Source: Phycisphaerales bacterium (GTDB lineage: Bacteria > Planctomycetota > Phycisphaerae > Phycisphaerales > SM1A02). Taken from it: a stretch of 64,000 nucleotides of DNA. Location: contig JAKVBQ010000013.1 of assembly GCA_022447205.1 (NCBI GenBank), forward strand, positions 1-64,000, written 5' to 3'. A model generated the notes under the pieces. The model saw only the letters and a list, made by a program, of their open reading frames with translations. It was not told the DNA's origin and made no database searches. Positions within the stretch are counted from its first letter, which is position 1; each line of letters opens with the position of its first letter. Below are positions 504 to 16,597 of the stretch, in pieces. A program made the position numbers and the translations under genes.

Positions 504-2795
504 ATGCTTCAACTCGCGCTCATCCTCGCCTCCATCAGCTCGAACTCGTTCGTGCCGGCATCGCCCCTGGAGGACATCGAGGGCATTCGGCCGTTCATGG
601 AGACCTGGTGCATCGGCTGCCATGAAGGTCGGCGTTCGAAGGCGGATCTCGATCTCGTCGTGATGCTCGATCGGATCGAGGCAGGCGAACTCCCCGCGGC
701 GATCGATCGCGTCATCGATCGACTGGATGAACGGGACATGCCGCCATCCGAGGAACCGCGTCCTGGAGAGACCGAGTACGACGACGTCATCCACGCCCTC
801 GAGTCACTGCTTGCACGCCGGGCGGAACGACCGCCCGCGCGCACCACGATCCGTCGCCTCGGTCGATACGAGTATGCGAACACCATTCGTGATCTCCTCG
901 GTGTCGAACTGTCCATCGAGGATGAGCTTCCCGCCGATGAGATCGGCGACGGTTTCGACAACAGCGGTGACGTCCTCTCCGTGCCGCCGCTCCTGCTCGA
1001 GAAGTACTTCGATCTCGCCGAGATGATCGCGTCCGGTGCGATCGCGGATTCCGACCAGGTGATCTCCACCACCGAACGCTTCAGCCTCGACGACCTGGAG
1101 GCGACCAACCGTGGCGTGCTCAGGCGTTCGGTCTGGATGCTTCCCACCAGGGGTGCGGTGTTCGCGCGTCACGCCATTCCCGCGGCCGGTCCGTACCTCC
1201 TTCGTGCGCGGGTGCGTGCGCAGCAGGCAGGACCGGATCCCGTTCGGATGGGGCTGGTCGTCGATGGCGAGATCCTCGAGAGCTTCACGGTCGAGGGCGC
1301 GGTCGACGACGCGATCGAGATCGAGACCGAGGTCGACCTGGATGCGGGCGTGCGCGATGTCGGGGTGATGTTCCTCAATGACTACTGGAATCCCGAAGCG
1401 ACCGAGCCGGCCGACCGTGATCGCAACGCGTTCGTCGAATGGGTCGAGCTCGAGGGGCCGATCCGAAGCGTCTATCCCACGAAACTCCAGGCGCGGCTGC
1501 TCGACCGCCATGGTTCCCCGGACGAACCGGCCGCCCTGCGTGCGATCCTCGGCTCCCTTGCGTCACTGGCCTGGCGTCGGCCGGTCGAACCGAACGACGT
1601 CGATGCATTGCTCGCGTTGTCCGACGGGGAGGAGCCGGGATGGGATCGTGTCCGGACCGGCCTGCTCGCGATGCTCGTCCACCCGCGTTTCCTCTTCAGG
1701 ATCGAGGCGGAACCGGCGCCGGGTCTTGCCGAACGGCGACTCGATGGCTGGGAGATCGCGACGCGGTTGTCCTACTTCCTCTGGTCGACGATGCCGGATG
1801 GACGATTGCGCCGTGCCGCCGCGACCGGTCAGCTGGACACGCCCGAGGGTCGTGCGCGCGAGGTGCGTCGCATGATCAGGGATCCGAGGTCTCGGAACCT
1901 CGCGCGTCACTTCGCGACCCAGTGGTTGCAGATCCGATCCGTCAAGGATGCGATTCCCGACGATGAACTGTTCCCCGGCGTGGATGATCGACTGCTTCGC
2001 CTGATGAGCGAGGAGACCGAGCGGTTCTTCGACGAGATCCTGCGCAAGGGTCTTCCCGTCACCGACCTCATCGACGGTGACTGGAGCTGGTTGAACCAGC
2101 CGCTCGCCGCGCACTACGGGATCGAGGGGGTGCAGGGCAACCGGATGCGCAAGGTGCGCATCGCCACGGAGGGCGAGAAGGGCACCGGCCTCCTCCGACA
2201 TGGCAGCATCCTCGTCTCGACGAGCAATCCGACCCGGACCTCGCCGGTCAAGCGGGGGAAGTGGGTGCTCGAGGCACTGCTCGACGATGCGCCGCCGCCT
2301 CCGCCACCCGGCATCTCCGGACTGCCTGATGATGGTGCGGTCGTCGGTGAACTGACTCTTCGCGAGATGCTCGAGCGTCACCGAAGCGATCCCGAGTGCG
2401 CCTCCTGTCACCTGCAGATGGATGCGCTCGGTTTCGCGCTGGAACCGTTCGATGCGGTCGGTCGACCCCGGACCGAGCAGGGCGGGATGCCGATCGATGC
2501 ACTCGGCGAACTGCCCGACGGTCGTCTCGTCGACGGACCCACCGGACTGCGCGACGTCCTGCTCGATGCGATCGGGCTCGCCCGCTTCCAGCGGTCGCTT
2601 GCGATGCACCTGGCCACCTACGGCCTCGGCCGAGGTCTCGACCTCCGGGACGAGGCGATGCTCGACCGACTTGTGGGTGCACTCGAGGAAACGCCCACCC
2701 TGGAGCGTCTGATCCTCGAACTTGTCGAGACCGATGCATTTCTGCTCCGACCTGCGCCGATCGAGGTCATAATGGAGGGTGAAGGAACGCCATGA
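504..2795 (+). CDS. Secreted DUF1587/DUF1592/DUF1588/DUF1585 protein with two CxxCH motifs
   Basis: 763 residues with an N-terminal signal sequence (MLQLALILASISS). A planctomycete cytochrome-like motif CIGCH lies at residues 36-40 and a second motif, CASCH, at 632-636 inside the DUF1588 part. The order seen is the heme motif, DUF1587 (IRRLGRYEYANTIRDLLG), a carbohydrate-binding-like middle region, DUF1595/DUF1592 (RLSYFLWSTMPD), DUF1588 (NPTRTSPVKRGKWVLEALL; ALEPFDAVGR) and DUF1585 (QRSLAMHLATYGLGR). This is the usual full-length architecture of the family, whose biochemical role is not established. Covalent heme and redox function are inferred from CxxCH. Its stop overlaps the DUF1552 start by four bases (ATGA), so the two are probably translated together. 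Confidence 0.88.
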   Translation: MLQLALILASISSNSFVPASPLEDIEGIRPFMETWCIGCHEGRRSKADLDLVVMLDRIEAGELPAAIDRVIDRLDERDMPPSEEPRPGETEYDDVIHALESLLARRAERPPARTTIRRLGRYEYANTIRDLLGVELSIEDELPADEIGDGFDNSGDVLSVPPLLLEKYFDLAEMIASGAIADSDQVISTTERFSLDDLEATNRGVLRRSVWMLPTRGAVFARHAIPAAGPYLLRARVRAQQAGPDPVRMGLVVDGEILESFTVEGAVDDAIEIETEVDLDAGVRDVGVMFLNDYWNPEATEPADRDRNAFVEWVELEGPIRSVYPTKLQARLLDRHGSPDEPAALRAILGSLASLAWRRPVEPNDVDALLALSDGEEPGWDRVRTGLLAMLVHPRFLFRIEAEPAPGLAERRLDGWEIATRLSYFLWSTMPDGRLRRAAATGQLDTPEGRAREVRRMIRDPRSRNLARHFATQWLQIRSVKDAIPDDELFPGVDDRLLRLMSEETERFFDEILRKGLPVTDLIDGDWSWLNQPLAAHYGIEGVQGNRMRKVRIATEGEKGTGLLRHGSILVSTSNPTRTSPVKRGKWVLEALLDDAPPPPPPGISGLPDDGAVVGELTLREMLERHRSDPECASCHLQMDALGFALEPFDAVGRPRTEQGGMPIDALGELPDGRLVDGPTGLRDVLLDAIGLARFQRSLAMHLATYGLGRGLDLRDEAMLDRLVGALEETPTLERLILELVETDAFLLRPAPIEVIMEGEGTP

Positions 2796-4171
2796 GGTCA
2801 CCCGGTCGTCAATCCCAACCGATCAATCGACGAACGATGCTGCAGGGACTCGGCGTCGCGATGTCGCTGCCCTGGCTCGAGGCGATGATGCCGAACAGCC
2901 TGGTCCGCGCCGGTTCCATCGTCAGTGGATCCGCGCCCGTCGCCTCGCCGCTTCGCATGGCCTTCCTCTTCATCCCCAACGGCGTCGATCCCGACGGCTG
3001 GTATCCGCAGGGAGAGGGTCGTGACTACGAACTCTCGCCCGCGCTCGCCCCGCTTGCCGAACATCGGGAACACTTCAGCGTCCTGCGCGGACTCGCTCAT
3101 CGGAACGCGATGGCGCTTGGTGACGGGCCTGGTGACCACGCTCGTTCCGCAGCCTGCTTCCTCACCGGAGCGCATCCCTACAAGACCGCCGGTCGCGACA
3201 TCCGGGTCGGCACCTCCGTCGACCAGCTCGCCGCCCAGGCACTGGGTGACCGAACCCTGCTTCCCTCCCTCGAGATCGGTTGCGAGCCTGCACTGCAGTC
3301 CGGCAACTGCGACTCCGGGTATTCATGTGCGTACAGCGCGAACATGTCGTGGCGAAGCCCGACCCAGCCGAACCTGAAGGAGATCCGTCCTCGCGAGGTC
3401 TTCGAGCGACTCTTCGGGATCAATCGACCCGGCGAATCCGGAGACGAGCGTGATCGGCGTCTCGCCGCGCGGAGGTCGATCCTCGACTACGTCCGTGATG
3501 ACGCACGCCGCCTCAACGATGCGCTCGGTTCGACCGACCGGATGCGCATGGAGGAGTACACCGAAGGTGTCCGTGCCCTCGAACAGCGCATCGAGAACCT
3601 CGAACGCGCGACGCAGGACCCCGAGGAATTCGCCTCGATGAAACCGATCGAGGGCGTGCCCGCGGATTACCGCGAGCATGTCGAACTCATGAACGACATG
3701 CTGGTCCTCGCATTCCGTCTCGACCAGACCAGGATCTCGACCTTCATGCTGGCCAACGAGGGTTCCAATCGGAGCTTCCCGTTCCTCGGCGTGAAGGAAG
3801 GGCACCACCACATCTCCCATCACAAGGGCGACGAGGGCATGATCGAGGGCATCCAGGCCATCAACCATTTCCAGAGCGAGATGCTGGCGGACCTGCTCAC
3901 GAAGATGCGCGCCGTCGAGGAACCCGACGGGACGCTCCTCGACAACTCGATGATCGTCTACGGAAGCGCGATTCGCGACGGCAACCGGCACAACCATGAC
4001 GATCTTCCGGTCATCCTGGCTGGTGGTGGTGGCGGCACGCTCGATCCCGGACGTCATGCCCAGTGGTCGAAGGGGACGCCGCTTTCGAACCTCTACGTCT
4101 CGATGCTGCAGCGCATGGGGGTCGAGGTCGACGCCTTCGCCGACTCGACGGGCGCCCTCAAGGGAATCTGA
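2792..4171 (+). CDS. DUF1552 protein with Tat-type signal
   Basis: 459 residues. The N terminus INRRTMLQGLGVAMSLPWLE is a twin-arginine-like leader; an RR motif before a hydrophobic stretch fits Tat export. The rest matches the DUF1552 family: AFLFIPNGVDPDGWYPQG near the start, and the histidine-rich EGHHHISHHKGDEG and NRHNHDDLPVILAGGGGG towards the end, which could bind metal. In planctomycetes DUF1552 proteins are regularly encoded beside DUF1592-type cytochromes, as here, with an ATGA overlap. The pair probably acts together outside the cytoplasm, but no substrate is known. tatA is present in this window at 29998. Confidence 0.88.
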   Translation: MRSPGRQSQPINRRTMLQGLGVAMSLPWLEAMMPNSLVRAGSIVSGSAPVASPLRMAFLFIPNGVDPDGWYPQGEGRDYELSPALAPLAEHREHFSVLRGLAHRNAMALGDGPGDHARSAACFLTGAHPYKTAGRDIRVGTSVDQLAAQALGDRTLLPSLEIGCEPALQSGNCDSGYSCAYSANMSWRSPTQPNLKEIRPREVFERLFGINRPGESGDERDRRLAARRSILDYVRDDARRLNDALGSTDRMRMEEYTEGVRALEQRIENLERATQDPEEFASMKPIEGVPADYREHVELMNDMLVLAFRLDQTRISTFMLANEGSNRSFPFLGVKEGHHHISHHKGDEGMIEGIQAINHFQSEMLADLLTKMRAVEEPDGTLLDNSMIVYGSAIRDGNRHNHDDLPVILAGGGGGTLDPGRHAQWSKGTPLSNLYVSMLQRMGVEVDAFADSTGALKGI

Positions 4172-4176
4172 GCCCC

Positions 4177-4890
4177 ATGCAGCTTCTCGATGCCGAGCAT
4201 TCGTGTTTCACGGTGGGGGCACCGGAAGCCGGCGACATCGACGTGCACCTCTTCGATCTCGATCGGGTCGATCGTGTCGAGGCATCCGATCTCCTCGATG
4301 GCGAACAGGCGCGCTCCGAACGGTTTCACAAGCCGGAGGACGGCCGTCACTTCCTCGCGCGTCGGGTGCTGCTCAGGCAGCTCCTTGCGCAGCGGACCGG
4401 ACGTGCGCCGCATGAACTCGGTGCCACACCCGATGCCCATGGACGTCCGGTGATCGACGGCATCGAGCCGGTTCGCTTCAACAGCAGCAGGACCCGCAAC
4501 TGGTTCGCGGTCGCGATCCATGCGGGCGAACGGGGGACACCCGGCATCGACATCGAGTGCAGCCGCGAGCTTCCCGACTCCGGTGCACTCTCGCGCCGGG
4601 TCTTCTCGCCGGAGGAACGTGCTTCGCTCGGTGAGGGCGTGGATCCCGGAAGCGATCGGCTCTTTCGGGTCTGGACCCGCAAGGAGGCGGTCCTCAAGGC
4701 GGTGGGTCGCGGCCTGTCGATCGATCCGTCCCTGATCACCGTCACGCTTGCGGATGACCTGCAGGGTGATCGGGTCGATGTTCCTGATCCTGCGTCAGGC
4801 GATTCCTGGCGGGTGTGCCTCTGGGATGTCGTCGATGATCGTGCGCCTCGCGGCCTCTTTCTGGCGGCGGCGCTCGCCGCTCCGGCCTGA
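4177..4890 (+). CDS. 4'-phosphopantetheinyl transferase (Sfp-type)
   Basis: 237 residues from the ATG at 4177, five bases after the DUF1552 stop; an upstream in-frame start at 4063 would lie inside DUF1552 and is rejected. The family transfers phosphopantetheine from CoA to a serine of carrier proteins. Diagnostic motifs are GIDIE (123-127, magnesium-binding), FSPEERA (143-149) and WTRKEAVLKAVGRGL (166-180). The upstream motif, usually FSLSHS-like, reads FNSSRTRN here, so one conserved histidine is not obvious. No carrier protein, polyketide or peptide synthase is in the window. Its place inside a cytochrome/dehydrogenase operon is unusual. Confidence 0.85.
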   Translation: MQLLDAEHSCFTVGAPEAGDIDVHLFDLDRVDRVEASDLLDGEQARSERFHKPEDGRHFLARRVLLRQLLAQRTGRAPHELGATPDAHGRPVIDGIEPVRFNSSRTRNWFAVAIHAGERGTPGIDIECSRELPDSGALSRRVFSPEERASLGEGVDPGSDRLFRVWTRKEAVLKAVGRGLSIDPSLITVTLADDLQGDRVDVPDPASGDSWRVCLWDVVDDRAPRGLFLAAALAAPA

Positions 4891-5648: not shown

Positions 5649-8600
5649 ATGAAGCACGCTGCAACCATCGTTCCGTTCATCCTGCTCTCGACACTCGGCT
5701 CTCGCGCGGAGGACGTCACCGATCGGTACGTCGTCCCGGAGGGCCTGTCCGTCGCCAAGGTGGCCGAGAGCCCCGAGGTCTACAACCCGACCGCGATCGA
5801 CATCGATCCCGAGGGCCGGATCTGGGTCTCGGAAGCGGTGAACTATCGACAGTGGAACGGACGCAACCCCGGTCGTCATCACGAGGAGGGGGACCGCATC
5901 GTCGTGCTCGAGGACCTCGACGGTGACGGTGTGCACGAGACGTCACACGTCTTCGCGCAGGACGAGGACCTCGTGGCCCCGCTGGGGATCGCGGTCCTCG
6001 GTGACGCGGTGGTGGTCTCCTGTTCGCCGCACATCCTCGTCTACCACGATGACGACGGTGACCTCAAGGCCGATCGACGCGAGACGCTCCTCACCGGGTT
6101 CGGTGGCTTCAACCACGACCATGGCGTCCACTCCGTGGTGCCCGGCCCCGACGGTCGCTGGTATCTCGCCGCCGGCAACGCCGGCCCGCACGAGGTCACC
6201 GGTTCCGACGGCAGTCGGATCAGTTCCGGTTCGATCTACAACGGTGGTGGTCCGGAACACGCCGGCAACACGCCCGGTCGGATCTCGAGTGACGGGCGCG
6301 ACTGGACGGGTGGGATCATGGTGTCGTTCCTGCCGGATGGTTCCGACCTCCGCGTTCACGCACACAACTTCCGCAACCAGTACGAGGTGGCACTCGACGC
6401 CTTCGGCAACATGTACACCGAGGACAACGACGACGACGGGAACCGTGGTTGTCGCACCACCTGGGTGATGGAAGGTGGCAACTACGGTTTCTTCTCCGCG
6501 GACGGGACGCGTTCCTGGCAGGCGGATCGACGGCCCGGACAGAACACCTGGATCGCCCACTGGCACCAGGATGATCCCGGGGTGATGCCTGCGGGCACCC
6601 AGAACGGTGCCGGGGGACCGACCGGGGTCGCGGTCTATGAAGGTTCGCGTCTCGCGCCGTGGATCGACGGGGCGGTCCTCGACTGCGATGCCGGTGCGGG
6701 TGTCGTCTACATCCATCGACCGACGATCAACGGCGCGGGCATCGACCTGCCCGCGTCGGTCCTGATCTCCGCGGATCCCGGTGAACACGGGGATCGTGCC
6801 CGTTGGTTCCGGCCGAGTGATGTCGCGGTCGGTCCGGATGGTGCGGTCTACGTCGCCGACTGGTACGACCCCGGGGTCGGCGGTCACGGTGCGGGTGATC
6901 GTGAGGCGTACGGACGCATTCTCCGGATCGATGCCGCGGATCCGGAGGCGACTGTCGAGTCACCGGCCCACCCACTGGTTTCGCCCGCACCGAGTGTCCG
7001 CTGGAACGCGATCGAGGCGATCCTCGAAGCGGGTGAGGATGCGCTTCCGGATCTCGAGGACCTCTTCTTCTCCGATGACCGGCGTGCCCGTGCACGAGCG
7101 GCATGGATGCTCGCCGGGATCAGGCCGGATGGTCGTGATCTCCTCCGCGAAAGCCTGCTCGACGAGGACCCCGGCCTGCGACTCGTCGCCTGGCGCGCTC
7201 TTCGCGAGGCGGGGGAGCCGGTCGTGCCGATGGCGCGCATGGTCGCGCGCGATCCGGATCCCGCGGTTCGCCGCGAGGTCGCGATCGCTCTTCGAGACGA
7301 GGAGTGGTCGGAGATCGACGACATCGTGATCGAACTCGCCCGGCGACTGGATGGCACCGATCGCGTCGCGGTCGAGGCGTTCGGACTCGCCTGCGACGGC
7401 AAGGAAGCGGAGGCGTACTCGACGCTCGCCCAGGAATTCGGCGGGCTGCCCGCGAACTGGGACGACCGGTTCGAGGCGATCGCCTGGCGACTGCACCCGG
7501 ATGGTGCGGTCGACGGGCTTGCCGGTCGTGCGATGGACCGACTGCTCGGCCGTGCCGAACGTCGGCGTGCCGTCGATGCGCTTGCGTTCATCCCCACCGA
7601 GGACGCGGCGAAGGCGATGGTCGAGATCGCTCGACGCGGTCCCGATGACGTTCGTGGCCTCGCGTCATGGTGGGTCGACATGCGGAGTGGGAACGACTGG
7701 TCCGACCACGAACTCCCCGGCGGATTCGGTGAAGGCGATCTCGAGGGGGCGACCCGTGCGTGGTCGAGCGGGGTGGTGGTCGAGGGACTGCATCCCTTCG
7801 AGATCGACGTCTCCGATGCCGCACAGGTCGTCTTCATCGTCGATCCGGCGGGAGGCGACAGCTACGACTGGGCGGACTGGCTCGATGTCGTCTTCATCGA
7901 CGAGTCGGGCGGGACCCGGGCGTTCGCCGAGATGGACTGGATGCGCGAGCAGACCGGATGGGGTTCCCTCAATCGTGATCGCAATGCCGGAGGTGCGCCC
8001 CTGCGTGCCGGGGGACGGGACTTCGCCGAGGGGGTCGGGGTGCATGCGCCCTCCGCGATCATGGTGGGCGTCCCGGACGGTGCGGTTCGCCTCGCGGGGT
8101 TCGGTGGTGTCGACGAGGGTGGGACCGGACAGGCGGGCAGTTCGACCAGGCTGGAGTTCCAGGTCTGGACGAAGCCGCACCGCACCTCGATCGACTACGG
8201 ACCGATCAAGGAACGGATCACCGACGACTCGCTCGATGCGGGCACGCGGACCGCGGCGGTGCGTGAACTCGCGCGAGACGGCAACGGTGGCTTCGTGCTC
8301 CTTGCGATGAAGCGGGAGGGCGCGTTGCCGGAGGTGGTCGAACCGATCACCGCGGAGGTGCTGCGTGCCCATCCCGACATCACGGTGCGTGCCGCCGCGC
8401 TCGAAGCGTGGCCGCCGGTCGCCGAGGGCGTCACGCTGCCATCGGTCGAGGAACTGATCGCGATGGTCGATGCCACCGACGATCAGGGGGTTGCCGCCGG
8501 GCGCACGGTCTACGAGACCGTCGGACTCTGTGCGAACTGTCATGCGTTCCGTGGTGCGGGTGGTGCGATCGGTCCCGACCTCTCGATGATCGCACGCAAG

Positions 8601-9491
8601 CTCGACGCCCGAGGCATCATCGACTCGATGATCAACCCGAACGCCGCGATCTCCTTCGGTTACGAACTCACCACGGTCGAGACGACCTCCGGTGGTTCGT
8701 TCACCGGGACGGTCATCGCGGATGGTCCGGTGGTGGTGCTTCAGGATGCGGAGGGCTTCCGCACCAGCGTGCCCGCCGAGGAGGTCGCAAGCCGCGCAAC
8801 GATGGGCACCTCGCCGATGCCCGGCGCACTTCCCACCGGTCTGTCCGCCGAACAGATCGCGCAGGTCACGAGCTACCTCCTGAGCGAGGACTCGCGGGTC
8901 CCGGTCTTCGGTGAGCCGATCCAGCTCTTCAACGGCAGGAACCTCGACGGTTGGACCGCTCACTTCCAGGACGGATCTCGTGATCCGGCGAAGGCGTTCT
9001 TCGTCGAGGACGGCATCCTCAAGGATCTCGGCAACCCGATCGGCTACCTCAAGACGATCGACGAGTACACCTCCTTCGAACTGGTCGTCGAGTGGCGCTT
9101 CGATCCCGAGAAGGGCGCCGGCAACAGCGGGGTCCTGATGCGACTGCAGGGTGCGGACAAGATCTGGCCGAACTCGATCGAGGCGCAGCTCTGGTCGACC
9201 AATGCCGGTGACATCTGGAACATCGACGACTACCCGATGACGACCGACAAGGAGCGCACCAACGGACGACACACCGTGAAGGCGCATCCCACCAATGAAA
9301 GACCGCTCGGTGAGTGGAACAGCTATCGCATCCTCCTCGATGGGGAGAACCTGACCCTCGAGGTCAACGGGCTCGTGCAGAACGAGGCGATCGACTGTGC
9401 CGTCCAGTCAGGGCCGATCGCCCTGCAGGCCGAAGGCGCCTGGATCGAGTTCCGGAAGGTCGAGCTTCGCCCGATCATCGGCCACGAGTAG
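5649..9491 (+). CDS. Giant PVC-type dehydrogenase: beta-propeller, HEAT repeats, NPCBM-like domain, CxxCH heme domain, C-terminal DUF1080
   Basis: 1280 residues from the ATG at 5649; the in-frame start 15 bases upstream would fall in the -10 region. Order: signal peptide (1-18); a sugar-dehydrogenase-like propeller (about 20-430, with NPTAIDIDPEGRIWV and VAVGPDGAVYVADWYDPG) of the PVC membrane-bound dehydrogenase type; HEAT-like helices (about 440-680); an NPCBM-like carbohydrate-binding segment (about 725-845, FAEGVGVHAPSAI); the planctomycete heme-binding domain with CANCH at 961-965; and a DUF1080 domain (about 1089-1278). The known members of these families suggest oxidation of a sugar, electron transfer to heme, and 3-keto-glycoside cleavage. 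Joining all three in one chain is inferred to make a self-contained enzyme. Substrate and cofactor (PQQ or other) are not readable from sequence. Confidence 0.85.
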   Translation: MKHAATIVPFILLSTLGSRAEDVTDRYVVPEGLSVAKVAESPEVYNPTAIDIDPEGRIWVSEAVNYRQWNGRNPGRHHEEGDRIVVLEDLDGDGVHETSHVFAQDEDLVAPLGIAVLGDAVVVSCSPHILVYHDDDGDLKADRRETLLTGFGGFNHDHGVHSVVPGPDGRWYLAAGNAGPHEVTGSDGSRISSGSIYNGGGPEHAGNTPGRISSDGRDWTGGIMVSFLPDGSDLRVHAHNFRNQYEVALDAFGNMYTEDNDDDGNRGCRTTWVMEGGNYGFFSADGTRSWQADRRPGQNTWIAHWHQDDPGVMPAGTQNGAGGPTGVAVYEGSRLAPWIDGAVLDCDAGAGVVYIHRPTINGAGIDLPASVLISADPGEHGDRARWFRPSDVAVGPDGAVYVADWYDPGVGGHGAGDREAYGRILRIDAADPEATVESPAHPLVSPAPSVRWNAIEAILEAGEDALPDLEDLFFSDDRRARARAAWMLAGIRPDGRDLLRESLLDEDPGLRLVAWRALREAGEPVVPMARMVARDPDPAVRREVAIALRDEEWSEIDDIVIELARRLDGTDRVAVEAFGLACDGKEAEAYSTLAQEFGGLPANWDDRFEAIAWRLHPDGAVDGLAGRAMDRLLGRAERRRAVDALAFIPTEDAAKAMVEIARRGPDDVRGLASWWVDMRSGNDWSDHELPGGFGEGDLEGATRAWSSGVVVEGLHPFEIDVSDAAQVVFIVDPAGGDSYDWADWLDVVFIDESGGTRAFAEMDWMREQTGWGSLNRDRNAGGAPLRAGGRDFAEGVGVHAPSAIMVGVPDGAVRLAGFGGVDEGGTGQAGSSTRLEFQVWTKPHRTSIDYGPIKERITDDSLDAGTRTAAVRELARDGNGGFVLLAMKREGALPEVVEPITAEVLRAHPDITVRAAALEAWPPVAEGVTLPSVEELIAMVDATDDQGVAAGRTVYETVGLCANCHAFRGAGGAIGPDLSMIARKLDARGIIDSMINPNAAISFGYELTTVETTSGGSFTGTVIADGPVVVLQDAEGFRTSVPAEEVASRATMGTSPMPGALPTGLSAEQIAQVTSYLLSEDSRVPVFGEPIQLFNGRNLDGWTAHFQDGSRDPAKAFFVEDGILKDLGNPIGYLKTIDEYTSFELVVEWRFDPEKGAGNSGVLMRLQGADKIWPNSIEAQLWSTNAGDIWNIDDYPMTTDKERTNGRHTVKAHPTNERPLGEWNSYRILLDGENLTLEVNGLVQNEAIDCAVQSGPIALQAEGAWIEFRKVELRPIIGHE

Positions 9492-9501: not shown

Positions 9502-12500
9502 ATGAAGACACTTCTTGCCGCCGTCGTTCTCTGCACCGCCTCCGCCTCCGCCGACGACTGGGTCGCCCTCTTCGACGGGACCACCCTGGACGGCTGGCAG
9601 GGTGACCCCGCGATCTGGAGCGTCGAGAACGGCGAGATCGTCGGGCGCACGACGCCCGAGACCAACCGGACCACCTACCTGCATCGCGACGGGGTCTTCG
9701 ACGACTTCGAACTGGAGTTCGAGATCAAGCTCGAGGGCGACACCGCGAACAGCGGCATGCAGTACCGCTCCCGCCGACTCGGACCGGAGGTCGGTGACGG
9801 CTGGGACCTCGCCGGCTACCAGGCGGACTTCGATGCGAACCACAACTACAGCGGCATCCTCTACGAGACGCGCGGTCGTGCGATCGCGGCGGTGCGCGGC
9901 GAGTCGAAGCGGTTCATGGTCGACGGCTCGACCCGTGACCTCGCGCCACCGAAGACCGACGCCGAGCTCGGCGCGACCCTGAACGACGACTGGCACCGTT
10001 ACCGCATCGTCGCGGACGGGGAACGACTGGAACACTGGATCAACGGCACGCGGTTGCTTCTGGTCGAGGACGCCGCCCCGACACGGACCGCATCGGGCAG
10101 CCTTGCGCTGCAGGTCCATGCGGGTGATCCGATGGCCGTACGCATGCGCAACATCCGGATCCGTCCGCTCGGCAGTGGGCGCCTCGATCTCGGTGGTGGT
10201 CCCGATCCGGACGCGGAACCGGAGTGGATCTGGGCCGCGGAGGAATCGCGCGACGGCGAGCAGTGCACGCTGATCAGGCCCTTCACCGTCGACGGTCCCG
10301 CCAGGATCTCGATCGTGGCGACCTGTGACAACGCCTTCCGACTCCTGCTCGATGGCGAGGAAGTCCTCGCCGGCACCGACTGGGGCAGGACCTGGAGCTG
10401 GAACGGCTCGATCGAACCGGGTGAACACCTGGTGCGCGTCCACTGCACGAACGAAGGTGGTCCGGCGGGATTCATCGCACGGATCATCCTGCGCCACGAG
10501 GACGGCACCGTCGAACGAATCCTCACCGGTGAAGGCTGGCTCGTCGAATCGACCGACACCCGGCGCTTCATCCGTCCGATGCCGGTCTTCTCCCACGGGA
10601 CGATCTCCGGCCATGACGGTCCGTGGGGCAACGTCATGCAGTCCAAGCGTGCCGAAGGCACGCGGACCTGGTCGCTCCCCGACGGCTTCGACGCGGAACT
10701 CATGGTCTCTGCGCAACCGGGCGAGGGTTCCTGGGTGTCCTGCGCCTTCGATCCGAAGGGCCGCCTGGTGATCTGTCCGCAGTACGGTCCGATCCAGGTC
10801 GTCGAGTTCGCCGATGACGGGACGGTCAGTGCGGTCCGACCACTCGCGGACGAGAGTGGCGAACCCCTCGGATACGCACAGGGACTGCTGCATGCGCACG
10901 ATGCCCTGTGGGTCAACATCTCCAAGGGGCCCGACGACGGTGGGGGGCTGTGGCGCCTTCGCGACACCGACGGTGACGACGTCTACGACGAACGCACCCG
11001 GGTCGGTGTCTACGGCAACGGCAGTGAACACGGGTGTCACGGCGTGGCGCTCGCACCGGACGGTTCGCTCTGGGTCGTCAACGGGAACTACACCAAGCCG
11101 CCACGCAGTGTCTCCGAGGAGTCACCCTTCCGTGGTTGGGCGGAGGATCAGCTGCTCGAACGACAGTGGGATCCGAACGGCCACGCGGTCGGGGTCTCGA
11201 TGCCGGCAGGCACCGTGCATCGCTACGACCCCGTGACCGGTGAGTGGACGATGCTGGTCGGTGGTTTCCGCAATGCCTACGACCTCGCCTTCAGCCCGGG
11301 TGGTGAATGCTTCCTCTACGACTCGGACATGGAGTGGGACATCGGCACGCCCTGGCACATCTGGCCTTTGGTGCACCACGTGGTGCCCGGTGCCGACTAC
11401 GGCTGGCGCGGTGGCAACGGCAAGGCTCCGATGTGGGCGCCGGACCGCATGCGCACCGTCTGCGCCACCGACGAGTCCTCGCCGACCGGCGTCGCCTTCG
11501 GGACCGACAGCAGCTTCCCCGAACCCTGGCGGAGTCGCTTCTTCATCGGTGACTGGTCGTACGGTCGGGTGCTCGCGGTCGACCTGATGCCGGATGGATC
11601 GACCTACACCGGCACCGTGCATGACTTCGCGCGGGGGACTCCGTTGAACGTCACCGACTTCACGTTCGGACCCGACGGGCACATGTACCTCCTCACCGGT
11701 GGTCGTCGGACCCAGAGCGGTCTCTACCGGATCGCTTCCGACGTCCAGGTGCCGGTCGGCACCACCACCCGGCTCGCGGAACTCGAGGCGACCACCGCCG
11801 ACCTGCGTGCGGCGCGCCATGCGCTGCAGGCGGATCACCCGACCGACTTCGCGACGCTCGAGCCTGCGCTCGACTCCGAGGACCCCGCGCTTCGGCTCAC
11901 TGCCCGCAACGCGGTGCGTGACGCCGGCGCACTCGGGTACCTCGGCGAGGTGCGTGGACACGACGGCCGTGCCGTGGTCGAGGTTCTCCTGGCGATCGCC
12001 CAGGAGGGTGAGGGGCCGGATGTGATCGCGAACGTCTGGCTCGACGCCTTCGAACGTGGGGACGATGCCCGGCGACTCGAACTCATGCGCGTCCTTGCGA
12101 TCGCGATCGCACGTGGTGGCGAGCCCGATGAGGCGAACCGCGTGCGTTTCCTCGACATGCTTGATCCGCTCTTCCCGACCGATGCCTTCCAGTTCGATCA
12201 CCAGTTGCTCGAACTGCTGGTCGCCCTGGGTGCGATGGATCTTCCTGAACGCGCCGTCGATCTCCTCCTGAGCGATCCCGATCCCGCACACCAGCTGGGC
12301 TACGCGATGGCGATCCGGAACCATCCCGACGACTGGAACGAGTTCACGGTCAGCGGCATGCTGGAGTGGACGAAGTACGCTTCCGACCTCCACGGCGGAC
12401 ACAGCCTGCGCGGCTTCGTGAACGCGGCCCGCGAGGACCTCGCCCAGACGATCGATCCCAACCTGCTGGTCGGCTATCGCATGAATGAAAGCGTCGCGGC

Positions 12501-13032
12501 GATTCCGGTCGATCCCGAGGCGGAACTCGGTCGCATGCCGGAACACGTCCGGGTGTGGACCGTCGCGGACCTCGTGCCTCGACTCGACGAGGTGGGAGCC
12601 GATCGGGACCTCGAACGCGGGGCGCGGGTCTATCGAGCCGCCCTCTGTATCCAGTGCCATCGCTTCGATGGTGACGGTGGTGCCACCGGTCCCGATCTCA
12701 CCGGCGTCGCCGGTCGTTACTCACGGGAGGACATGCTTCGTTCACTGATCGAACCGTCGCACAGCATCAGCGACCAGTACGGTCAGTCCGCGGTGATCCG
12801 CAATGACGGGACGCGGGTCGTGGGTCGCGTTGTCGGCCTGTCCGACGAGAACGTCGAAGTGAACACCAATCCCTACGGTCGTTCGATCGTGACCATCCCG
12901 CAGTCCGAGATCCGGGAGACGGTCGCGGTCGACACCAGTGCGATGCCTGCGCACCTCCTTGACACCCTCCGCGCCGAGGAGATCCTCGATCTCATGGCGT
13001 ACCTCGAGAGCGGTCGCACGGCGAACGACTGA
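9502..13032 (+). CDS. Giant PVC-type dehydrogenase with N-terminal DUF1080 and C-terminal CxxCH heme domain
   Basis: 1176 residues from the ATG at 9502; the longer frame opening at 9397 overlaps the previous gene and lacks the signal peptide. Order: signal peptide (1-16, MKTLLAAVVLCTASAS); DUF1080 (about 18-220, LFDGTTLDGWQGD); a beta-sandwich carbohydrate-binding-like region (about 250-360); a propeller dehydrogenase domain (about 390-755, VSCAFDPKGRLVICPQYG); helical repeats (about 760-1010); and the heme domain with CIQCH at 1049-1053. The same modules occur in the previous protein with DUF1080 at the other end. It starts 10 bases after the previous stop, so the two are likely expressed together and may act on related glycosides in the periplasm. 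Confidence 0.85.
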   Translation: MKTLLAAVVLCTASASADDWVALFDGTTLDGWQGDPAIWSVENGEIVGRTTPETNRTTYLHRDGVFDDFELEFEIKLEGDTANSGMQYRSRRLGPEVGDGWDLAGYQADFDANHNYSGILYETRGRAIAAVRGESKRFMVDGSTRDLAPPKTDAELGATLNDDWHRYRIVADGERLEHWINGTRLLLVEDAAPTRTASGSLALQVHAGDPMAVRMRNIRIRPLGSGRLDLGGGPDPDAEPEWIWAAEESRDGEQCTLIRPFTVDGPARISIVATCDNAFRLLLDGEEVLAGTDWGRTWSWNGSIEPGEHLVRVHCTNEGGPAGFIARIILRHEDGTVERILTGEGWLVESTDTRRFIRPMPVFSHGTISGHDGPWGNVMQSKRAEGTRTWSLPDGFDAELMVSAQPGEGSWVSCAFDPKGRLVICPQYGPIQVVEFADDGTVSAVRPLADESGEPLGYAQGLLHAHDALWVNISKGPDDGGGLWRLRDTDGDDVYDERTRVGVYGNGSEHGCHGVALAPDGSLWVVNGNYTKPPRSVSEESPFRGWAEDQLLERQWDPNGHAVGVSMPAGTVHRYDPVTGEWTMLVGGFRNAYDLAFSPGGECFLYDSDMEWDIGTPWHIWPLVHHVVPGADYGWRGGNGKAPMWAPDRMRTVCATDESSPTGVAFGTDSSFPEPWRSRFFIGDWSYGRVLAVDLMPDGSTYTGTVHDFARGTPLNVTDFTFGPDGHMYLLTGGRRTQSGLYRIASDVQVPVGTTTRLAELEATTADLRAARHALQADHPTDFATLEPALDSEDPALRLTARNAVRDAGALGYLGEVRGHDGRAVVEVLLAIAQEGEGPDVIANVWLDAFERGDDARRLELMRVLAIAIARGGEPDEANRVRFLDMLDPLFPTDAFQFDHQLLELLVALGAMDLPERAVDLLLSDPDPAHQLGYAMAIRNHPDDWNEFTVSGMLEWTKYASDLHGGHSLRGFVNAAREDLAQTIDPNLLVGYRMNESVAAIPVDPEAELGRMPEHVRVWTVADLVPRLDEVGADRDLERGARVYRAALCIQCHRFDGDGGATGPDLTGVAGRYSREDMLRSLIEPSHSISDQYGQSAVIRNDGTRVVGRVVGLSDENVEVNTNPYGRSIVTIPQSEIRETVAVDTSAMPAHLLDTLRAEEILDLMAYLESGRTAND

Positions 13033-14779: not shown

Positions 14780-14905
14780 TCGCCTTGATGCGCTCGGCAG
14801 GGTCGGGAACCCCTTGATTCGATTCAAAACGAGGATCTGGACGTTTCCAGCGCGATGTCACGTGGTACTTTTGGGTTCCACCTGATCTCGATGGAGCCTG
14901 TCCAG

Positions 14906-16597
14906 ATGCATCCGTTCGCACGACCTGTCGTTCTTCTTGCTGCCTGCATCACCTGCGCCCTGCACGGTGACTCGAATTGCTACGAGCCCCATGATGATCC
15001 AGGGTGCGACGACCCCAAGTGCGAGGCCCTGGTCTGCAACGAGGATCCCTTCTGCTGCGAGGCGACCTGGGATGCCAATTGCGTGGAGATCGCGCTCGAT
15101 GTGTGTGAAGAGGACGACAACGGCGGTGGCGGTGGTGGTGGCGATGACGCACTGGGTTGCGACGACGCGGAACTCATCGACACCGTCGGTGACTTCCCGT
15201 TCGACAACACCTTCTCGGAAGCAGCGATCGACCTGAGCGGAACGTGCGACCCCGGTCCTTCCGGCAACGACATCCTCTACAAGCCGGTCTGGTTCCGATG
15301 GACCTGCCCGGAGGATGACGCCTACATCTTCTCGACCTGCAACCAGGCCGCGTTCAACACCCGCATCGCGATCTTCGAGGGCAGCTGTGATCTCGAGACC
15401 ACCATCACCTGTCTCGACGACACACCCGGTTGCGGCGTCTTCACCACCGAGATCGGCCTCAGTTGCGAGGGCGGCACCGAGTACGTCGTCTGCGTCGGCT
15501 CCTACGCGCCGTTCCTCTTCGGTTCCGGCACCCTCACCATCGAACCCGCCCAGCGCATCCTCGTGCGCGAAGTGGCCTGGACCACGGATCTCGGTGCTCC
15601 CGAGGACATGATCTACGAGGCCTGGGAGCCTGCAGGAGGCGTGACCGACTGGGACGGCTGTCTGCAGGATGCCGCGAAGAACGGGGATGAACTGGTTTCG
15701 ATCACCAACGCCGAGGAGAACACCGTGGTCGCGGCGCTCTTCTCCGGGTTCTCCTCCGGCTTCCAGGCGTTCGGGCTCTACCAGGATCTCGGTTCCTCGG
15801 ACTACTCCGAACCGGCAGGTGGCTGGTCGTTCACCAATGGCGATCCCCTGAGCTTCACCAACTGGTCTCCGGGTGAGCCGAACGACACCGGCAACGTCGA
15901 GCATGTCGGGCAGATCGGCGCCTCCGGTGCCTGGAACGATCTCGATGGTTCACGCGCTGAATGGAACGCCTATGCGACCAGACGACCGGGTACGCCGTTC
16001 CGTTACACCTGGTCCAAGGAGGACGGCGGCAACGGTCATGAGTACGAGGCGTTCGCCCTCCCGGTCGACATGACGATCCTCGAGGCCCACGCCTACGCGG
16101 AGCAGAGGGGCGGCCATCTGGTCTCGATCAATTCATCCGCTGAGCAGGCGATGCTCAACCAGTACGTGATCGATGCCTGCTACAGCGAGTTGGCGATCGT
16201 CATCGGCCTGGTGCAGGACCTTGATGCCGCCGACTACGTGGAGCCTGCCGGTGGTTGGAAGTGGTCGAGCGGCGAACCGCTCGAGTACACGAACTGGAGG
16301 ACCGGCGAGCCCAACGACAATCCCGTCGGTGAGAACTTCGCCGAGATGTACGACAACGGCACCTGGAACGACCTGCAATCCGGATCGGTCGCCAAGGCGG
16401 TGATCATCGAGTACGGAACCGATGTTTCCGACTGTCCCGAGGATCTTGACGGCGACGGAATCGTCGGCGGTGCGGACCTCACCATCCTGCTCGGGATGTG
16501 GGGCCAGTCCGACGAGAACATCGACCTCGACGGCAGCGGGGCGGTCGACGGAGGCGATCTGACGATCCTCCTCGGGGCCTGGGGTCCCTGCTCCTGA
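14906..16597 (+). CDS. Secreted protein with two C-type lectin domains and a C-terminal dockerin-like pair
   Basis: 563 residues from the ATG at 14906, chosen because GGAG (14893-14896) lies nine bases upstream. A signal peptide (1-20) is followed by a cysteine-rich motif (HDDPGCDDPKCEALVC, FCCEATWDANC; about 25-65), a Gly/Asp linker and a beta-rich region. Two C-type lectin-like domains follow, each with a WSxGEPLxxTNWxxGEPND-type core (about 270-350 and 400-490). It ends with two dockerin-like calcium-binding loops carrying LLGMWG and LLGAWG. C-type lectin folds often bind carbohydrate. Role is probably extracellular or cell-surface binding; no catalytic domain is seen. Confidence 0.82.
   Translation: MHPFARPVVLLAACITCALHGDSNCYEPHDDPGCDDPKCEALVCNEDPFCCEATWDANCVEIALDVCEEDDNGGGGGGGDDALGCDDAELIDTVGDFPFDNTFSEAAIDLSGTCDPGPSGNDILYKPVWFRWTCPEDDAYIFSTCNQAAFNTRIAIFEGSCDLETTITCLDDTPGCGVFTTEIGLSCEGGTEYVVCVGSYAPFLFGSGTLTIEPAQRILVREVAWTTDLGAPEDMIYEAWEPAGGVTDWDGCLQDAAKNGDELVSITNAEENTVVAALFSGFSSGFQAFGLYQDLGSSDYSEPAGGWSFTNGDPLSFTNWSPGEPNDTGNVEHVGQIGASGAWNDLDGSRAEWNAYATRRPGTPFRYTWSKEDGGNGHEYEAFALPVDMTILEAHAYAEQRGGHLVSINSSAEQAMLNQYVIDACYSELAIVIGLVQDLDAADYVEPAGGWKWSSGEPLEYTNWRTGEPNDNPVGENFAEMYDNGTWNDLQSGSVAKAVIIEYGTDVSDCPEDLDGDGIVGGADLTILLGMWGQSDENIDLDGSGAVDGGDLTILLGAWGPCS

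Follow-up and report, generated by a model that had tools for sequence, protein, structure and literature searches.

A gene on the forward strand of a 64,000-nucleotide stretch of DNA from a Phycisphaerales bacterium (assembly GCA_022447205.1, contig JAKVBQ010000013.1, positions 1 to 64,000; hereafter the window) encodes a 1280-residue protein, P0001. The best single account of this protein, to which we give a probability of roughly 0.4, makes it an exported sugar dehydrogenase of the quinohemoprotein type that is joined to a 3-keto-glycoside eliminase and would first oxidise and then eliminate. A glycoside would be held by the NPCBM domain, and one of its hydroxyls, most usefully that at C3, would be oxidised by the propeller with pyrroloquinoline quinone (PQQ), or a similar quinone, and Ca2+. 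The tethered c-type heme would take up the electrons and hand them to a soluble cytochrome or to the respiratory chain; by beta-elimination, the DUF1080 domain would then release the aglycone of the 3-keto-glycoside, possibly with channelling between the domains. The strictest version, in which a single secreted chain has C3 of the bound glycoside oxidised by a PQQ-type propeller, the electrons led away via its own c-heme and the aglycone eliminated by its own DUF1080, is somewhat doubtful.

The reading frame of P0001 is uninterrupted from the ATG at 5649 to the stop at 9491, and its closest orthologue, in a Phycisphaerales metagenome-assembled genome (L039), has an ATG at the equivalent place. 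Judged by eye, the N-terminus (MKHAATIVPFILLSTLGSRA, ending before ED) resembles a Sec signal peptide. Scans with Pfam and NCBIfam profiles revealed, in this order, a propeller (DUF7133, residues 23-407, 6e-52; TIGR02604, residues 32-429, 5e-101), HEAT_2 repeats (around residues 476-549, 1.5e-14), an NPCBM domain (residues 760-841, split over two stretches, 1.6e-17), a TIGR02603 heme domain (residues 948-1079, 2.7e-23) and DUF1080 (PF06439, residues 1090-1274, 2.4e-32), every match being far beyond chance. P0001 belongs to TIGR02604 with 338.6 bits against a curated cut-off of 122.2, while the heme domain scored 82.4 bits (cut-off 68.15) and DUF1080 112.9 bits (gathering score 26.8). The first-pass annotation of this DNA had described a secreted single chain with a dehydrogenase-like propeller, NPCBM, a CxxCH heme and DUF1080; all of these domains were found by the scans, and the HEAT repeats had been overlooked.

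A phylogenetic survey of the fusion, as suggested in the first-pass annotation, found the full architecture in one frame in 19 of the 294 genomes sampled from the phylum, 15 of them (own genome included) with a full-length frame as a single match and four with two pieces of one frame. Full-length orthologues in this sample are 45-50% identical to P0001. About 30 named records share the single-frame architecture and belong to Planctomycetota wherever a phylum is given; an orthologue is also carried by the complete genome of Planctomycetes bacterium Poly30 (L077). The L039 orthologue is 84% identical (dN 0.108, dS 0.683, dN/dS 0.16), and there the same three genes, for a stand-alone DUF1080 protein, P0001 and a permuted fusion, follow each other in identical order. 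The orthologues, the dN/dS ratio and the identical layout in L039 rule out chance or a frame artefact, and the 19 carrier genomes rule out a single-genome oddity; the architecture is common to a clade and not peculiar to the host genome.

Since the full fusion was not found in sampled relatives from the host's own family and order, its patchy spread suggests transfer. In a tree of the propellers the fused proteins form one cluster with moderate support (82/74), which includes one unfused member, L059; a single origin followed by one loss is therefore likely, if not proven. In Bacteroidota and Verrucomicrobiota the propeller-HEAT-heme core is present without DUF1080. No conserved operon around the fusion was found beyond L039, and the commonest neighbours of the fusion genes are sulfatases (7 of 91 neighbour proteins). 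All parts of P0001 are already known and related fusions exist in databases; what is new is the combination. The earlier suggestion that the full combination is undescribed holds for the literature searched, and has to be read beside some 30 orthologues, the permuted neighbour and an archaeal DUF1080-GSDH fusion.

The structure model of the propeller (pLDDT 90.4) has PQQ sugar dehydrogenases as all of its best 16 structural matches (Z 25.4-31.6; 3a9g, fungal AA12, 3das, Asd and sGDH), with other propellers at Z 24.9 or less. The best match (Z 31.6, 307 residues aligned, rmsd 2.8) identifies the six-bladed sGDH/Asd/AA12 fold. This kinship is visible only through the model, as a phmmer search of the propeller alone against the Protein Data Bank (PDB) returned no match. 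Pfam GSDH (PF07995) did not match P0001 at E 0.01 and matched a related Runella core weakly (2.4e-4), and hhalign against E. coli Asd gave E 3.5e-4 but a probability of just 37%. In the hhalign alignment the Arg-Asn and Arg of Asd pair with R242-N243 and R388, and the catalytic His of Asd falls on H158, given gap-free extension.

Correspondingly, D143, H144, R228, N229 and R406 of sGDH align with D157, H158, R242, N243 and R388, all pairings being made by sequence alignment and not by coordinates, and that of D143 and H144 by gap-free extension. These five residues are invariant across fused and unfused relatives; in a 60-sequence set gathered via peptide patterns including [DN]HDHG[LV]HS and DPGVGGH, the invariance is partly due to selection, and a 14-row alignment gathered without patterns agrees at H156-H161. 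An invariant acidic loop (residues 259-262) follows the Arg-Asn pair. As judged from sequence and model, the propeller is the probable sugar-oxidising domain, and PQQ may be its cofactor. The earlier description of it as sugar-dehydrogenase-like agrees well with a model closest to PQQ sugar dehydrogenases and with the kept catalytic His, Arg-Asn pair and one PQQ-binding Arg.

Among known systems, the pyranose dehydrogenase CcPDH of Coprinopsis cinerea (AA8 cytochrome, AA12 PQQ propeller, CBM1) likewise has a carbohydrate-binding module and a heme domain in one chain with a six-bladed sugar dehydrogenase propeller of the PQQ type. Like P0001, it retains the catalytic His, Arg-Asn and one Arg and is without K377, Q76 and R408 of sGDH. 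However, its heme is of type b instead of c, its domain order differs, DUF1080, HEAT and NPCBM are absent, and the two propellers are about 20% identical in the structural alignment. CcPDH is a proven PQQ enzyme in which Ca2+ is bound through side chains (PMC6881789).

The heme claim of the first-pass annotation was borne out as well: the CxxCH motif lies at residues 961-965, and C961, C964, H965 and M1057 are invariant across the fused set, M1057 aligning with the distal Met (M292) of Kustd1711, a Kuenenia cytochrome. The host genome contains a gene for cytochrome c assembly.

The best structure and profile matches of the DUF1080 domain are entries titled 3-keto-glycoside eliminase/hydratase and 3-keto-2-hydroxy-glucal hydratase. 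The domain had been annotated as a 3-keto-disaccharide hydrolase; the 3-keto-glycoside family stands, whereas PDB titles now name DUF1080 enzymes as eliminases/hydratases and not plain hydrolases. In the fused set N1159-S1160-G1161, E1178 and Q1260 are invariant. The H275N variant of the Bacteroides (Bt) enzyme is reported to be deficient in hydration (PMC13273386). We equated Bt His275 with the His of QDHG by residue count; the DUF1080 domain of the permuted neighbour keeps this hydration His (Q-x-H). That P0001 would eliminate and its neighbour hydrate is an attractive guess. The 3-keto-glycoside pathways of Bacteroides, Alistipes and Caulobacter, in which a BT2157-type DUF1080 eliminase/hydratase works with LacABC or NAD-dependent dehydrogenases, share with P0001 the DUF1080 domain and the oxidise-then-eliminate logic proposed here. 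They differ in using separate proteins, in having a GMC or Gfo/Idh oxidant where P0001 has the propeller, and in a DUF1080 with His275 kept.

Gene neighbourhoods and domain fusions link the propeller-heme core with the chemistry of 3-keto-glycosides. On a Catenovulum plasmid, genes for a TIM-barrel protein, the core, DUF1080, a GMC oxidoreductase and gluconate-2-dehydrogenase subunit 3 lie in a row, and on two Runella plasmids a core-type cytochrome is followed by DUF1080. A PF01261 TIM-barrel gene adjoins the core in 12 Bacteroidota loci, which come mostly from one Cytophagales group and are not 12 independent events. The 3-keto-glycoside eliminase AtOGE, which has a TIM-barrel fold, and the putative hydratase AtHYD are both annotated as sugar phosphate isomerases (PMC10628242). 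Two verrucomicrobial propeller-HEAT-heme proteins (L079 and L081) are fused to ThuA, L079 additionally to a GDSL lipase domain. ThuA is tied to 3-keto-trehalose. The permuted fusion beside P0001 also unites DUF1080, propeller and heme, and the Natronococcus protein WP_252490925 (L138:5968-8490), a 'PQQ-dependent sugar dehydrogenase' (GSDH) with an N-terminal DUF1080, resembles P0001 in having a propeller of the PQQ-sugar-dehydrogenase type and a DUF1080 in one chain; it is haloarchaeal, starts with DUF1080 and gave no heme or NPCBM match.

Several observations weigh against the oxidise-then-eliminate account. We know of no characterised sGDH/AA12-type enzyme with C3 of a glycoside as its site of oxidation. 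CcPDH is believed to act at C1, and the characterised propeller relatives oxidise aldoses, presumably at C1, so that the C3 oxidation which the first-pass annotation had proposed is an inference. In a profile search that matched a positive control of the same phylum (G252), PqqC was absent from 19 of 19 fusion genomes, and PQQ would thus have to be scavenged from outside, as E. coli does for Asd; the PqqE profile did not discriminate, as every match was below the cut-off and every control genome had matches too. At the positions of Q76, K377 and R408 of sGDH, P0001 has L108, A348 and S390; since CcPDH also lacks the three residues, they do not define the wider family. Bt His275 is replaced by Glu1262, and all 31 fused sequences covering the position have Glu. 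DUF1080 was rare within 8 kb of unfused cores (narrow profile), and its linkage to the core therefore depends on the plasmid loci, which came from searches with P0001 itself and are thus biased towards joint matches. With a GMC/gluconate-2-dehydrogenase-3 pair beside the core, Catenovulum may use an oxidant other than the propeller at C3. Finally, glucose release from lactose was reported for Lac161_ORF7, a homologue of the core (PMC5342196).

The alternative that survives best, although unlikely, reverses the order: another enzyme would make the 3-keto-glycoside, DUF1080 would cleave it, and the propeller would act on C1 of the released aldose or 3-keto-aldose. In the characterised sGDH/Asd/AA12 family, oxidation is expected at C1 (CcPDH discussion), which fits family knowledge better than C3. 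GMC and gluconate-2-dehydrogenase-3 together are the usual C3 oxidant, and their genes adjoin core and DUF1080 in both the Catenovulum and the Runella rosea loci. However, neither GMC_oxred_C nor Gluconate_2-dh3 matched in the host genome (G000, 95% complete), and only 1 of the 19 fusion genomes has Gluconate_2-dh3. This makes the propeller the obvious candidate for the C3 oxidant, with NAD-dependent enzymes as an alternative.

It is quite improbable that the propeller is a hydrolase or a binding scaffold, with the heme serving sensing or other electron transfer. The propeller fold also occurs in lactonases and other enzymes (Z about 25), and Lac161_ORF7, a verrucomicrobial protein with the same propeller-HEAT-heme core (Piru_Ver_Nterm, HEAT_2, cytochrome c), for which NPCBM and DUF1080 are not named, was described as a beta-galactosidase with a Km of 1.8 mM and a kcat of 13.2 per s, without mention of an added electron acceptor (PMC5342196). 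This report fits neither oxidation at C3 nor at C1 well. It rests, however, on the glucose set free by proteins that had been produced in E. coli; the Km values of three unrelated proteins were alike and close to the LacZ value, so that host LacZ contamination may lie behind it. Fold and kept residues of P0001 favour PQQ sugar dehydrogenases, and the heme is conserved together with the propeller.

Less probable again is that DUF1080 of the P0001 subfamily is a binding module or an ordinary glycosidase: its fold is common to CBM66 and GH16 enzymes, Glu1262 stands in place of the hydration His, and in Thermogutta DUF1080 was proposed as a xanthan glycosidase, THTE_1561 being a reported endo-xanthanase, but the best matches are to the 3-keto-glycoside eliminase/hydratase set, the invariant residues are more than a binding module would need, and DUF1080-dehydrogenase linkages recur.

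The features around P0001 are listed in Table 1. Full-length relatives of the permuted fusion occur in at least 10 sampled genomes across the phylum. The fused and stand-alone DUF1080 copies separated before the split of the host and L039 genomes. Upstream, at positions 504-4171, a gene for a Planctomycete PSD-type protein (DUF1587/1592/1588/1585/1595) that also carries a CBM60 domain precedes a DUF1552 (HXXSHH) gene; the end of the latter overlaps by about 100 bases with a frame for an Sfp-like phosphopantetheinyl transferase (4063-4890). Positions 14855-16597 encode a protein with a C-type lectin domain and a weak GC-type dockerin match.

Table 1. Fusion gene P0001, its domains and the adjoining DUF1080 genes in the window.
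Feature	Coordinates	Strand	Evidence
Stand-alone DUF1080 gene; about 74-76% identity with the DUF1080 domain of P0001; found at the same place in L039	4911..5597	+	Pfam, alignment
Fusion gene P0001, 1280 aa, secreted	5649..9491	+	Reading frame, domain scans, orthologues, dN/dS
Apparent Sec-type signal peptide, residues 1-20	5649..5708	+	Sequence, by eye
Six-bladed propeller TIGR02604/DUF7133, residues 32-429, sGDH/AA12-like fold; D157, H158, R242, N243, R388 kept	5742..6935	+	Profile, model, alignments
HEAT_2 repeats, best stretch residues 476-549	7074..7295	+	Pfam scan
NPCBM/NEW2 domain, best stretch residues 760-841	7926..8171	+	Pfam scan
TIGR02603 c-type heme domain, residues 948-1079; CxxCH 961-965; M1057 aligned with Kustd1711 M292	8490..8885	+	Profile, alignment
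DUF1080/PF06439, residues 1090-1274; Glu1262 where Bt has His275	8916..9470	+	Pfam, structure matches, alignment
Permuted fusion: DUF1080 (with Q-x-H His), propeller-like, TIGR02603 heme	9502..13032	+	Profile scans, alignment

Non-hydrolytic glycoside breakdown via 3-keto intermediates has been recognised recently, and DUF1080 and propeller-heme proteins are numerous in Planctomycetota. If P0001 works as proposed, an oxidant would be named for the phylum, the TIGR02604 and TIGR02603 families would gain a function, and a compact enzyme for glycoside cleavage would be at hand. P0001 would then be the first protein of the soluble quinoprotein sugar dehydrogenase fold with C3 specificity, and the first glycoside-cleaving enzyme to oxidise and eliminate on its own.

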